This document shows positions 24,597 through 39,137 of a stretch of 45,930 nucleotides of DNA, piece after piece. Made by a program: the position numbers and the translations under genes. The notes under the pieces are model-generated. The model did not search any database. It saw only the letters and a list, made by a program, of their open reading frames with translations, and had not been told where the DNA came from. Location: assembly GCF_019749955.1 (NCBI RefSeq), contig NZ_JAIEPC010000019.1:1-45930 (forward strand), written 5' to 3'. This DNA comes from Sphingomonas sp. (GTDB lineage: Bacteria; Pseudomonadota; Alphaproteobacteria; Sphingomonadales; Sphingomonadaceae). Positions within the stretch are counted from its first letter, which is position 1. Every line of letters starts with the position of its first letter.

Positions 24597-25517
24597 ATGG
24601 CCGATAACGATTCCGTCCTCACCGCCGCCGCGCAGTGGCAAGGCGCGCGGCTTGCGCTGGCGACGGTTGTATCGACCTGGGGATCGGCGCCGCGCCCGCG
24701 TGGCAGCCACATGATCGTGCATGAGGATGGTCGCTTCGAAGGCTCGGTCTCGGGCGGCTGTGTCGAGAGCGACATCCTTGCGACCGCTGCCGACGTAATC
24801 GCGGGCGCGCCGGCCCAGCTCAAGCATTACGGCGTCGCCGATGCGGCCGCCTGGGAAGTCGGGCTGCCATGCGGCGGCGAGATCGACGTGCTCGTCCAGC
24901 CGGTGAGCGACGCGGGGTTCGCGCCCGCCTTGTTCGATGCCATTGCCGAGGCGCGGGCTTCGGGCGCGCGGCTCAGTGTCGCCACCGACACCGCGACCGG
25001 CCAGTCGAGCATCGGCGAGCGCGAAGGCGCGTTCGTCAACCGCTATGATCCGCCGCGCCGCTTGCTGATCGTCGGCGCGGTGCAAATCGCGCAGGCGCTG
25101 AGCGGCCTCGCGCGCGAGCTCGGTATTGCCGTTACCGTCATCGACCCGCGCGCGCGCTTCCTGACCGAGGAGCGTTTTCCCGGCGTCACGCTCGACGATC
25201 ACTGGCCCGACGAGGCGATTACGGCGCTCAAGCCCGATCCCGCGACCGCAATCGTCACGCTCAGCCACGACATCAAGATCGACGATCCGGCGCTCACTGC
25301 GGCGCTCGCCAGCCCCGCCAGCTATGTCGGCGCGCTCGGATCGCGCCGCAGCCATGCGGCACGGCGCGAGCGGCTGGCGACAGCGGGACTGTCCCAAGCC
25401 GCGCTCGACCGGATCGATGCCCCCGTCGGCCTCGACATCGGCGCGGTTGGCCCCGCCGAAATCGCGCTGTCGATCGCCGCCGCGATGATCGCCGCCTTCA
25501 ATGCCAAGGTGGCATGA
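24597..25517 (+). CDS. XdhC/PaoD-family molybdenum cofactor insertion chaperone
   Basis: A 306-residue XdhC-family protein that binds the modified molybdenum cofactor and loads it into the hydroxylase. The N-terminal XdhC domain contains VVSTWGSAPRPRGSHM and the cysteine motif SGGCVES, with PCGGEIDVLVQ after it. The C-terminal XdhC_C Rossmann-like domain begins at LLIVGAVQIAQAL and contains YVGALGSRRSHAAR and VGLDIGAVGPAEIALSIAA. The stop overlaps the next gene by 4 bases (ATGA), linking it with the cytidylyltransferase. Confidence 0.9.
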   Translation: MADNDSVLTAAAQWQGARLALATVVSTWGSAPRPRGSHMIVHEDGRFEGSVSGGCVESDILATAADVIAGAPAQLKHYGVADAAAWEVGLPCGGEIDVLVQPVSDAGFAPALFDAIAEARASGARLSVATDTATGQSSIGEREGAFVNRYDPPRRLLIVGAVQIAQALSGLARELGIAVTVIDPRARFLTEERFPGVTLDDHWPDEAITALKPDPATAIVTLSHDIKIDDPALTAALASPASYVGALGSRRSHAARRERLATAGLSQAALDRIDAPVGLDIGAVGPAEIALSIAAAMIAAFNAKVA

Positions 25518-26089
25518 TCGCCCCTGATCGCACCCTGCTGGTGCTGCTGGCGGCCGGGCGATCGGTGCGCTTCGGGGATACCGACAAGCTCGCGGTCGAT
25601 TTTCTCGGTCGTCCGCTTGCGCTGCATGTCGTGACGGCGCTGGAGGACGTGCCCTTTGCTGGGCGGGTTGCGGTCACCTCCGGCACGGCGCTCGATTTCG
25701 CGGCGCACGGCTATGACGTGATCGCCAATCCAGCCCCGGAAACCGGGCTGTCGGGGTCGGTCCGCCTGGGCGTGGCGGCGGCGCAAGCGACTGGAGTCGC
25801 CGCCGTGATCTTCGCGCTAGCCGACATGCCGCGCGTTACCGCCGCGCAGATATTTCGGCTGCTCGAGGCGGCGGACGGCCCCGACGATGTGGTCGCGTCG
25901 AGCGACGGCACGCGCCCCTCGCCACCCGCGCTGTTCGCCGCCGGACAATTCGCCGCACTTGCTGCCAGTGTAGGCGACGAAGGCGGTCGCGCGCTGATCC
26001 GGGGCGGCCGCCATATCATCACCAGCCCCGCCGAGCTGATCGACATCGACACGCCCGAGGATTTGGAAAGGCTGCGCGCGCTGGTTTGA
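25514..26089 (+). CDS. MocA-like molybdenum cofactor nucleotidyltransferase
   Basis: A 191-residue MobA/MocA-type enzyme, likely attaching CMP to molybdopterin to make the dinucleotide form needed by PaoC. The nucleotide signature is LLVLLAAGRSVRFGDTDKL, followed by ETGLSGSVRLG, ALADMPRVT and a Gly-rich GGRALIRGG. The context next to paoABC and xdhC favours cytidylyltransferase (MocA) over guanylyltransferase (MobA). Last gene of the cluster. Confidence 0.85.
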   Translation: MIAPDRTLLVLLAAGRSVRFGDTDKLAVDFLGRPLALHVVTALEDVPFAGRVAVTSGTALDFAAHGYDVIANPAPETGLSGSVRLGVAAAQATGVAAVIFALADMPRVTAAQIFRLLEAADGPDDVVASSDGTRPSPPALFAAGQFAALAASVGDEGGRALIRGGRHIITSPAELIDIDTPEDLERLRALV

Positions 26090-26105: not shown

Positions 26106-26183
26106 CCGTTCGTTTCGAGCGTAGTCGAGAAACGCTGCCGCGTCGCCCCTGGCCTGTTTCTCGACTTCGCTCGAAACGAACGG
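26106..26183. repeat. Inverted repeat element of the TCGAGCGAAGTCGAGA type
   Basis: Arms 26106-26133 and 26156-26183 match as reverse complements with one mismatch (core CGTTTCGAGCG-AGTCGAGAAAC) around a 22-base loop. It lies between the convergent mocA-like gene and the ABC permease and may serve as their shared terminator. The same core recurs at 33331-33413 and 39063-39137. Confidence 0.85.
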
Positions 26184-26218
26184 GTCGATAGAGGGAGGTA
26201 TTACCCGGAAAAGCGGCT

Positions 26219-27426
26219 CTATTCGTGCCGCAGTGCGTCGATCGGGTTCAGGCTCGCCGCACGCCGCGCCGGGAAGAAGCCGAACACCACGCCGATGATC
26301 GCCGAAATCGCAAAGGCGACAATGTTGATCTGCAAGTCGAACAGCCACGTCACCTTGAGCAGCGGCACCAATCCCAGAATCACCAGCTGGGCGACGACGA
26401 TACCGATCACCCCGCCGATGCACGACAGCGCAATCGCTTCGATCAGGAACTGCATCAGCACTTCGCGCGCAACCGCGCCGATCGCGAGGCGGATACCAAT
26501 CTCGCGCGTGCGTTCGGTTACTGAGACCAGCATGATGTTCATGATGCCGATGCCGCCGACGATCAGGCTGATCGCCGCAACGGCGGAGACGATGCCGGTC
26601 AGTAGCGATGTCGTCTTGGTCAGCGTATCGGTGAATTGCTTGGTGTCGAAGATGAAGAAGTCGTCGTCCTTGCCCTTGGTGATGTTGCGGCGTTCGCGGA
26701 GCAGAGCGGTGATCGACGCCTGCACCTGCGCAGTCGAATAATCGGCATTCACGCCCACCAGCATTACGCGGATATCGCGATTGCCGGTGATGCGCCGCTG
26801 CACTGCCTTGATCGGCATGACCACCAGATCGTCCTGATCACTGCCGAAGCCCGCCTGCCCCTTGGCCGTGAGCACACCGATCACTTCGCAACTGATGCCC
26901 GAAATCCGCATCTGCGTGCCGATCGGGTCGGCCTCACGGTACAGGTTTGTCTTGACGGTACTGCCGAGGATGCACACCGATTTGCCTGCGGAGAGTTCCT
27001 GCGGGGAGAATTCGCGCCCCGCCGTCAGCGGCCAGGGATTGACGCGGAAGAAGTCGTTGGTGGTGCCGTTGACGGTCGTCGACCAGTTGGCGCCTTCATA
27101 GATCACGGTGACCGTGGTCTGGGCTTCTTCGGCGACCGCGTTGATGCCCGCGATCTGCTTGCGCACTGCATCGACATCCTCGATCTTGAAGTCCGCCGGA
27201 CGCGGACCGCCGCCGCCACGGCCAAAGCCGGCACCGGGGCGCACTTGCAGAATGTTGGTGCCGAGCGACGAGATCGACGCCTGCACTGCCGCCGTCGTTG
27301 CCTTGCCGAGCGTGACCATCGTCACCACCGCCGCCACGCCGATGATGATGCCAAGCGTCGTCAGGAACGACCGCAGCTTGTGCCGTGCAATCGACCGGAT
27401 CGCGAGGCTGATCGTCGTGAAGAACA

Positions 27427-27427
<1 letters not shown>
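26219..27427 (-). CDS. MacB-type ABC transporter permease
   Basis: A 402-residue permease with four membrane helices: one near residues 18-42 ([20 protein letters not shown]) and three at about 275-390 in the FtsX domain. The large extracytoplasmic MacB periplasmic core domain lies between them. [27 protein letters not shown] is the classic FtsX-domain coupling block, and the C-terminus [19 protein letters not shown] is diagnostic. MacB-type pumps use ATP to drive export of substrates from the periplasm through an outer-membrane channel. Coupled by one-base overlap to the ATPase gene. Substrate unknown. Confidence 0.9.
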
Positions 27428-32380: not shown

Positions 32381-32406
32381 GCGCCGCCCGCTCCGGCGGG
32401 CGGCGC
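32381..32406. terminator. GC-rich hairpin between convergent genes
   Basis: GCGCCGCCCGC and GCGGGCGGCGC are exact reverse complements with a TCCG loop. The stem directly follows the DUF2846-like gene and touches the last base of the pccA stop codon, so it can act on both transcripts. No T-tract. Confidence 0.65.
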
Positions 32407-34532
32407 TAATCGATTTCCAATATGATAGCGTCGACCGCCAGGCTATCGCCCGGCTTTGCACTGACCACCTTGACCAGCCCCGATTTTTCGGCGCGCAGGA
32501 TGTTTTCCATCTTCATCGCCTCGACCACCGCCAGCGGCTGGCCGATCTCGACCTTGTCGCCCTCGCCGACATCGAGCCGCATCAGCAGGCCCGGCATCGG
32601 GCACAGCAGGAAGCGCGACAGATCGGGCGGGATTTTCTCAATCAGATGCGCGGCATAGGGCGCGGCATAGGCTGGTAGCACGCGCGCGCGGTGGCTGGCG
32701 CCGCGGGTCGTCAGCACATAGCCCGACGGCGCCTTGGCGAGGCGGACGATCAGCCGGTCGACGACGACTTCCTCGTCCTCGGCGTCATAAAGCGTTGCTT
32801 CGATCAGCCGGTCGCCGGGGGTGTAGGCAATCTCCAGATCGAGCAGCTCGCCGTCGACGCTGATCTCGTCCTCGGCGAGTTCGACGTCGTGATCGGTATC
32901 GCCGATCCGTACCACCCAGTCGGCGGGCGGCAACAGCCGCTGGCCGAGCTGGCCATCAACGCGGCGCGCGCGATCGGCCTCCGCCGTCGCGACAAAGGCA
33001 GCGACGGCTGCGAGCGCGCGGACCAGATTGGGCGAGGCGGGCGCGCCGTGGAAGCCGTCGGGATATTCCTCCGCGATAAACCCTGTCGTGATGTTACCCG
33101 AGCGAAAACGCGGGTGCTGCATGATCGCCGACAGGAAATCGATGTTATGCCCCGGCCCGCTGATCTCGAACGCATCGAGCGCGGCGATCTGCTGGTCAAT
33201 CGCGCCAAGCCGCGTGGGCGCCCAGGTGATGAGCTTGGCGATCATCGGATCGTAGAAAATGCTGACCTCGCCGCCTTCGATCACGCCATCGTCGACGCGG
33301 GTGTAGGGTTGTGGAGAATCCACCACTTCCCCGTTAGTGTCGAGCGAAGTCGAGACACGGGAGCCAGGCGCATCGCCTGCGGCCCGCCCCTCGACTTCGC
33401 TCGGGACGAACGGTCGGTAGGGCGTACCGGTGGCCTCCGGCGGATCATAGCGCACCAGCCGCCCGATGCTCGGCAGGAAGCCGCGATAGGGGTCTTCGGC
33501 GTACACCCGGTTCTCGATCGCCCAGCCATTGATGCCGATGTCGGCCTGGCCGAACGGCAGCGGCTCGCCCGCAGCCACGCGGATCATTTGTTCGACCAGA
33601 TCGATGCCGGTGATCGCCTCGGTCACCGGATGCTCGACCTGGAGCCGGGTGTTCATTTCGAGGAAGTAGAACCCCTCGCCGGTCGTATCCGCGCCCGAAA
33701 CGATCAGCTCGACCGTGCCCGCTGAGTAATAGCCCACGGCGCGGGCCAGCGCGACCGCCTGCTCGCCCATTGCTTGGCGCATCTTGGGCGTGACGAAGGG
33801 CGACGGTGCTTCCTCGACGACCTTTTGGTGGCGGCGCTGGATGCTGCATTCGCGCTCGTTGAGGTAGAGGATGTTGCCGTGCTGGTCGCCGAGCAGCTGG
33901 ATTTCGATGTGGCGCGGGCTTTCGATGAATTTTTCGATGAACACGCGGTCATCGCCAAACGACGCCAGCCCCTCGCGCTTGGTCGCTTCAAAGCCCTCGC
34001 GCACGTCCTGCTCCGAGTACGCCAGCCGCATCCCCTTGCCGCCGCCGCCTGCCGAAGCCTTCATCATGACCGGAAAGCCGATGTCCTTGGCGATCTTCAC
34101 CGCTTCATCGGTATCGGCGATCTCCCCGAGGAAACCGGGGACGACATTGACCCCCGCCGCCTTGGCGAGCTTCTTCGATTCGATCTTGTCGCCCATCGCC
34201 GCAATCGCGCCCGGCGGCGGGCCGACGAACGCGATGCCCGCCTCGGCGCAGGCGCGTGCAAAACTCTCGCGCTCGGACAGGAAGCCATAGCCGGGGTGGA
34301 TGCAATCCGCGCCCGTCGCCTTGGCGGCAGCGAGGATCAGATCGGCCTTGAGATAGGATTCCGCTGCCGGTGCCGGGCCGAGTCGAACCGCCTCGTCCGC
34401 CATCAGTACGTGGGGAGAGCGCGCATCGGCATCGGAGTAGACCGCGACGGTGGCGAGCCCCATCCCCTTGGCCGTGCGGAACACGCGACAGGCGATTTCA
34501 CCACGATTGGCGACGAGGATTTTCTTGAGCAT
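32406..34532 (-). CDS. pccA: Propionyl-CoA carboxylase alpha subunit (biotin carboxylase plus biotin carrier), with repeat-encoded insert
   Basis: A 708-residue protein: biotin carboxylase domain (LKKILVANRGEIACRV, ATP-grasp glycine loop KASAGGGGKGMR, EMNTRLQVEHPVTE), the acyl-CoA carboxylase BT region, and a C-terminal biotinyl domain with K674 in VEAMKMENIL. It carboxylates biotin and, with PccB, turns propionyl-CoA into methylmalonyl-CoA. Between RLVRYDPPEATG and TRVDDGVIEGG there is an extra segment of roughly 40 residues, read from a repeat element (residues about 374-401). Family members normally join these two blocks directly. The gene remains in frame. The start at 34532 is preferred over the longer frame because it gives the standard MLKKILVANRGE. 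Its ATG overlaps the stop of a small membrane protein gene. Confidence 0.93.
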   Translation of the reverse strand: MLKKILVANRGEIACRVFRTAKGMGLATVAVYSDADARSPHVLMADEAVRLGPAPAAESYLKADLILAAAKATGADCIHPGYGFLSERESFARACAEAGIAFVGPPPGAIAAMGDKIESKKLAKAAGVNVVPGFLGEIADTDEAVKIAKDIGFPVMMKASAGGGGKGMRLAYSEQDVREGFEATKREGLASFGDDRVFIEKFIESPRHIEIQLLGDQHGNILYLNERECSIQRRHQKVVEEAPSPFVTPKMRQAMGEQAVALARAVGYYSAGTVELIVSGADTTGEGFYFLEMNTRLQVEHPVTEAITGIDLVEQMIRVAAGEPLPFGQADIGINGWAIENRVYAEDPYRGFLPSIGRLVRYDPPEATGTPYRPFVPSEVEGRAAGDAPGSRVSTSLDTNGEVVDSPQPYTRVDDGVIEGGEVSIFYDPMIAKLITWAPTRLGAIDQQIAALDAFEISGPGHNIDFLSAIMQHPRFRSGNITTGFIAEEYPDGFHGAPASPNLVRALAAVAAFVATAEADRARRVDGQLGQRLLPPADWVVRIGDTDHDVELAEDEISVDGELLDLEIAYTPGDRLIEATLYDAEDEEVVVDRLIVRLAKAPSGYVLTTRGASHRARVLPAYAAPYAAHLIEKIPPDLSRFLLCPMPGLLMRLDVGEGDKVEIGQPLAVVEAMKMENILRAEKSGLVKVVSAKPGDSLAVDAIILEID
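33331..33413. repeat. TCGAGCGAAGTCGAGA-type inverted repeat inside pccA
   Basis: Left arm CCGTTAGTGTCGAGCGAAGT and on to 33358; right arm from about 33388 to 33413. It nearly duplicates the intergenic element at 39063-39137. Read on the pccA strand it gives PFVPSEVEG followed later by VSTSLDTNG, without stop codons. Confidence 0.92.
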
Positions 34533-39062: not shown

Positions 39063-39137
39063 CCGTTCGTGTCGAGCGAAGTCGAGACACCGCGCATCGC
39101 TTGACGCCCGCCCCTCGACTTCGCTCGGGACGAACGG
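39063..39137. repeat. TCGAGCGAAGTCGAGA-type inverted repeat upstream of the mutase gene
   Basis: Arms start CCGTTCGTGTCGAGCG and end CTCGGGACGAACGG. It fills almost all of the 100-base gap between the enoyl-CoA hydratase gene and the mutase gene. This intergenic copy is the clean counterpart of the copy inside pccA. Confidence 0.92.

Follow-up and report, generated by a model that had tools for sequence, protein, structure and literature searches.

The window, by which we mean the whole stretch of 45,930 nucleotides of Sphingomonas DNA analysed here, contains pccA, a gene predicted to encode the alpha subunit of propionyl-CoA carboxylase (PCC). A palindromic repeat, which we call type A, lies within this gene, and two further copies are intergenic. 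The features are the following:

32406–34532, minus strand: pccA, predicted propionyl-CoA carboxylase alpha subunit, with an intact frame of 708 codons
33300–33446, minus strand: whole variable loop of PccA (residues 363–411), which holds other repeats in relatives; residues 373–405 are predicted to be unstructured
33331–33413, minus strand: type A palindromic repeat of two inverted REP-like half units, read as PFVPSEVEG...VSTSLDTNG
39063–39137, no strand assigned: intergenic copy of the repeat, aligned to the pccA copy with 70 identical positions in 83 columns and eight gaps
about 26106–26185, no strand assigned: a third and more diverged copy, also intergenic, with 75% identity to the repeat in pccA

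The type A repeat within pccA

PccA has the make-up of a PCC alpha subunit. A single chain joins the biotin carboxylase part (Biotin_carb_N and Biotin_carb_C in Pfam) to PCC_BT and to a biotin carrier (Biotin_lipoyl), the protein matches the solved PCC alpha structure 3n6r_A over its full length (E-value 3.8e-242), and 3n6r is also the best fold match for the predicted structure of PccA. A preliminary description of this DNA, made from the sequence, placed the repeat at the junction of the biotin carboxylase and BT domains. The site is in fact within the Biotin_carb_C domain, which is matched in two stretches (the better one being 408–487), and PCC_BT begins only at residue 507. The same description was right that the repeat leaves the reading frame unbroken. 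Long runs of invariant columns are present in the 59-row alignment of close PccA homologues.

The AlphaFold2 model built on a diverse alignment of 75 rows has a mean pLDDT of 85.9, and values below 50 are confined to residues 54–57 and 373–405; an earlier model, which drew on the 59 close homologues, was of low quality, at a mean pLDDT of 60.6, and was set aside. Residues 373–405 are predicted to be the only long low-confidence stretch in an otherwise well-folded enzyme. The insert, already proposed to be a loop, is modelled as a disordered one between strands 361–363 and 410–415. Arg412 is invariant in the 75-row alignment, and the residues encoded by the repeat end eleven positions before it. 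Arg412 presumably corresponds to Arg338, a catalytic residue in the biotin carboxylase of E. coli.

The repeat itself is narrower than the span of 33281–33440 initially assigned to it. The 83 bases at 33331–33413 form an imperfect palindrome, in which 62 bases are equal to those of the reverse complement without gaps, and bases 33330–33413 encode residues 374–401 of PccA (28 residues) in frame. That an 83-base inverted repeat lies inside pccA was thus verified, and it is beyond chance: type A is present in at least 40 distinct places of the window's own genome (G000, a draft of 125 contigs), a lower bound derived from 66 match rows, 26 of which repeat a place already matched on the other strand, with 40 of 152 candidates scored. 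The intergenic copy at 39063–39137 had been called nearly identical to the one in pccA; their identity is only 84%. The diverged copy at 26106–26185 sits between two ORFs, 25514–26089 on the plus strand and 26219–27427 on the minus strand. A PccA homologue from another source (P0002, 96% identical) carries the same insert with few differences, which argues against the assembly error considered in the preliminary description.

The loop of the window is 49 residues long, compared with 22 residues in its sister row in the tree described below (G146), which has no repeat. The gain is therefore 27 residues, and the figure of roughly 40 added residues proposed at first is true solely against the shortest loops, of nine residues. 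By eye, no clear target-site duplication could be recognised around the pccA inserts in the aligned loops, because the short direct repeat flanking the insert of the window is also present in repeat-free relatives.

REPINs consist of two REP units in inverted orientation, are dispersed in genomes and are associated with RAYT transposases. Type A likewise has a short palindromic unit and many dispersed copies, and its two inverted halves form one long hairpin, as in a head-to-head REP dimer. The CGTC superfamily of REPs is characterised by a CGTC tag (or TGTC/CCTC), a stem of 8–9 bp, a loop of 4–5 bases and a CCA-like tail. The halves of type A read CGTC and TGTC by eye, and each half folds imperfectly alone. 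Two other repeat types of the PccA loop, D and H (see below), match the tag, stem and loop of this superfamily, also by eye on the DNA. The window's genome encodes two neighbouring Y1_Tnp (RAYT-like) genes (L041 and L042, G000:C121:9645-11254). Mobilisation of type A by these genes was considered on the grounds of proximity and rejected on those grounds, as no type A copy is present in their 3.3-kb loci; action at a distance is possible. The CGTC families are listed without transposase association in Table 1 of PMC3733652.

Occupants of the PccA loop across the genus

Among the 120 best of 7999 scored PccA homologues, the loop bounded by FLPSIGRLVRY and RVDDG varies strongly in both length and sequence. 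When these proteins are compared with the short-loop row P0096, this loop is the sole internal site with insertions of at least nine residues; the other internal sites with insertions of at least four residues have 7–8 (28 rows) or 5 residues (one row). Homologues with the same residues encoded by DNA that is not repeat-like were not found, and many hold different palindromic repeats. Since a set of best homologues is biased towards the query, we performed a census across the genus. It covered 131 genomes, of which G007, G075, G108 and G131 had no clear pccA match among those listed and were left out. The others yielded 129 loops from 127 genomes, two of which have two copies, and one loop (G139, 13 residues) was unparsed, leaving 128 loops.

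Repeat types were defined as peptide patterns written after the loops had been seen, and for the tree, dN/dS and clustering analyses two loops were relabelled manually, G152 as E and G003 as A. Nine peptide types were distinguished, and repeat-like peptides are present in 49 of the 128 loops: type C in 14, A in nine, E in seven, D in five, B and H in four each, and G, I and J in two each. Such peptides are recognisable in 44 of the 48 loops of at least 30 residues and in five of the 80 shorter ones. The 79 loops with no recognised repeat comprise four long ones of other sequence and 75 short ones, which span 9–27 residues, so that the blocks flanking the loop are not normally adjacent, as had been supposed. 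The number 49 is conservative, since at least two short loops classed as repeat-free (L136 of G019 and L203 of G061) have a single E-like hairpin. Single hairpins of family E or C are found in four short loops, these two and L149 (G024) and L211 (G082), and it is possible that they are remnants of dimers. A pccA loop of 52 residues in G071 (L162) is non-repetitive and has no strong hairpin (z −0.6). Among wider named relatives, 75 of 80 loci could be parsed, and the loops of four (L043, L044, L072, L073) appear repeat-like by eye.

At the DNA level, 41 of the 44 typed loops of at least 30 residues fold with z below −3 relative to shuffles (median −5.7; the exceptions are G152, G130 and G032), compared with none of the 44 control stretches of equal length just downstream. 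Seven families, A, B, C, D, E, G and H, are dispersed in their host genomes; I and J were outside the search. Apart from type A, further copies beside that in pccA were found for family B in G129, G084, G078 and G022, for C in G031, G029 and G068, for D in G009, G091 and G110, for E in G097, G138 and G017, for G in G020 and G144, and for H in G098, G086, G010 and G148. The smallest match counts in a host are at least nine for G in G144 and at least 16 for B in G129; these are lower bounds that include both strands of each palindrome and are not copy numbers. In one part of G022 (C44:224813-225875), copies of family B are spaced by about 240 bases and resemble an array rather than single insertions. 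Four genomes rich in repeats of the loop types (G028, G135, G005 and G083) have a short pccA loop of their own. With many loops empty, some of them in repeat-rich genomes, tolerance together with supply does not predict occupancy.

The flanks of the loop are under purifying selection whether or not the loop holds a repeat. Their median pairwise dN/dS is 0.186 for repeat loops (1080 pairs) versus 0.218 for repeat-free loops (2318 pairs), the pairs being non-independent. In paralogous acyl-CoA carboxylases, the same loop is short in 19 of 20 proteins. Exactly 39 residues separate FLPS from the FYDPMIAK-like block in 17 of them, and two others (L267 and L268) begin slightly differently and lack a long insert. 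In L252, a paralogue encoded by the window's genome, this loop is longer by 22 residues, which did not qualify as a dispersed repeat under the threshold applied.

Type A also enters other genes of the window's genome. From the 40 type A places, 22 ORF readings that span copies other than that of pccA were scanned with Pfam. Three of these readings have the copy inside a recognised domain or between two of them: a sulfite reductase (L012), a DNA polymerase III alpha subunit/dnaE2 (L013) and an ORF of the phosphorylase superfamily (L030). A further candidate, L015, was not counted, as its copy is well before the domain. Homologues were compared for sulfite reductase and dnaE2, chosen because of the inserts there in the window's genome. 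An insert of at least eight residues is found at one site in 23 of the 120 best sulfite reductase homologues. In DnaE2 (the set P0241–P0360), inserts of at least 12 residues concentrate at two internal positions: 29 of 114 homologues have one after residue 142 (numbering of P0353) and 14 have one after residue 804, many of them repeat-like and of more than one type. Many of the inserts in both proteins, but not all, look repeat-derived. Thus pccA is not unique, and a few permissive sites seem to exist.

Turnover and reading phase of the inserts

To follow the occupants of the loop, we used a tree of the 128 flank sequences with the loop excluded, the bootstrap of which had not settled. On this tree, a minimum of 40 changes of loop type is required, and 21 changes are counted if only occupied versus empty is considered. 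The well-supported branches alone force at least nine changes for C and six for A. The types are nonetheless clustered on the tree: none of 200 shuffles was as low as 40 changes, and the shuffled mean was 51.4. Flanks that are about 94% identical may enclose different families, as with B in G084 and G in G020, D in G009 and E in G017, or A in G116 and C in G095. Conversely, near-identical inserts with a shared spacer are present in rows that are not adjacent in the tree (G095, G117 and G151; G018, G034, G094 and G116). Given the clustering, and because some shared inserts appear to go back to one event and to have been inherited or exchanged, 40 changes overstates the number of insertions. Some of the changes of loop type may represent allelic exchange. 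Clustering of the inserts within families yields 24 groups when the cut-off is 70% identity (16 for 60%, 38 for 80%), and the similarity between loops of different families reaches 0.64 at the 95th percentile. With seven dispersed families in the loop, at least seven insertion events must have taken place, and we estimate that there were about 24.

An open frame in a type A repeat is unremarkable, since 210 of the 240 frame readings of the 40 genomic copies are stop-free; the three phases are stop-free in 76, 62 and 72 of 80 readings. Nevertheless, all nine type A loops of pccA are read in one codon phase, and the window's genome shows that phase again where type A lies in its ORFs for sulfite reductase, dnaE2 and a nucleosidase-like protein. 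The phase in use gives a peptide rich in Ser, Thr and Glu, whereas the other phases are arginine-rich. Were the six clusters that type A forms at 70% identity independent of one another and free of filtering, a single shared phase would be expected by chance in about 0.4% of cases (hand calculation). A single phase is likewise kept by B (4/4 loops), H (4/4) and G (2/2), and by D in four of five loops, the fifth being off-phase. The cores of E are in phase 0 in eight loops, and one more match, off this phase, lies in a C loop; family C uses all three phases. A phase that is nearly fixed in most families, though the others are mostly open, points to filtering at the protein level, and we take it that the peptide is under selection; part of the bias is explained by shared ancestry and by exchange.

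Origin and meaning of the loop inserts

We consider it likely that a permissive, predicted-disordered loop of PccA has been recurrently colonised by REP-like repeats. We infer that an insert of this kind is translated and that, when in frame and stop-free, it is probably near-neutral. Repeats of many families would land throughout the genome; insertions that hit genes would nearly always be lost, and those at a few sites would survive. The survivors would combine a length that keeps the frame with a tolerated peptide phase, for type A that of PFVPSEVEG...STSLDTN and not the arginine-rich alternatives. Thereafter, the occupants would be trimmed to single hairpins, eroded or replaced, and the single-hairpin loops of G024 and G082 fit the trimming of dimers.

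A different cause would be a preferred DNA or RNA target, with palindromes being inserted or swapped for a sequence, for the resident hairpin or for a useful hairpin in the mRNA, and permissiveness being secondary. Different families do replace one another in the same slot, a strong hairpin is kept in 41 of the 44 long typed loops, and insertion sequences are described as targeting REPs (PMC1525189). We regard such a target as unlikely, as 75 of the 128 loops are short and have no recognised repeat, and the phase bias would place the filter at the protein level. Moreover, the recurrent sites of sulfite reductase and dnaE2 suggest that no single target sequence is needed, and target duplication is not definable by eye. 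Another possibility is that few insertions took place and that recombination between pccA alleles then carried them from species to species, most changes of loop type being transfers. The near-identical inserts that share a spacer in non-adjacent rows are what this would produce, but at least seven dispersed families and 24 clusters at 70% identity are too many for a few events, and the account appears improbable. The preliminary description also raised a partly impaired PccA, and the gene could be decaying, the insert being just upstream of the invariant Arg412, the presumed counterpart of Arg338. Judging from the intact frame, the conserved domains with their invariant columns in homologues, the purifying selection on the flanks and the presence of such inserts in 49 of 128 loops, a pseudogene or an impaired enzyme is very improbable and was rejected. 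Finally, an assembly error or a chance palindrome, conceivable in a draft of 125 contigs, can be dismissed given the same insert in the independent protein, the 40 or more genomic copies and the repeats in other loops of the genus.

Repeats read as protein are better documented than the preliminary description, which called them rare, would suggest. Rickettsia RPEs are dispersed palindromes that are read in frame in conserved genes, and a guanylate kinase with an RPE is reported to be translated and active, with a changed affinity for its substrate (PMC2229807). The pccA repeat is similar in being a dispersed palindrome, in frame in a conserved gene and missing from close relatives. Unlike the RPEs, several unrelated families occupy one loop across a genus, replace one another and show a phase bias, and translation of the insert is presumed. 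CGTC/GTAG REP dimers are found in alpha-proteobacteria, with S. wittichii and S. alaskensis among them; copies inside genes are described in S. alaskensis and other genomes, with DnaE2 among the genes, and neutral insertion in flexible linkers or loops has already been suggested for them (PMC3733652). Type A resembles these REPs as a head-to-head dimer located inside ORFs of an alpha-proteobacterium. According to the same report, REPs in genes of the same category are at different sites, except for recB of X. campestris and X. oryzae, where the site is about the same. The name pccA does not occur in its main text, and the reuse of one PccA site by at least seven families sets the present case apart from the REPs described there. 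Thus, in-frame palindromic repeats as such are already known, and what is new is one loop reused by many families. We found no report of an enzyme loop reused in this way in the open-access collection searched, which lacks most subscription papers.

Recurrent colonisation of a permissive loop leaves room for a bolder proposal, which we put forward tentatively. The loop might be a standing landing pad, in which unrelated palindromes are repeatedly installed in a fixed slot and a preferred phase, trimmed and swapped. Dispersed repeats would then regularly provide new disordered protein sequence, and the presence of a palindrome might itself be selected.

In-frame palindromic repeats have so far been treated as scattered accidents. 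In this genus, at least seven dispersed families fill one loop of a housekeeping enzyme, the flanks of which are under purifying selection. Dozens of inserts together with insert-free related forms make up a natural series, in which the cost of a repeat and the origin of disordered sequence could be gauged. The phase bias, in turn, would be a sign, available from sequence, that the inserts are filtered as protein.
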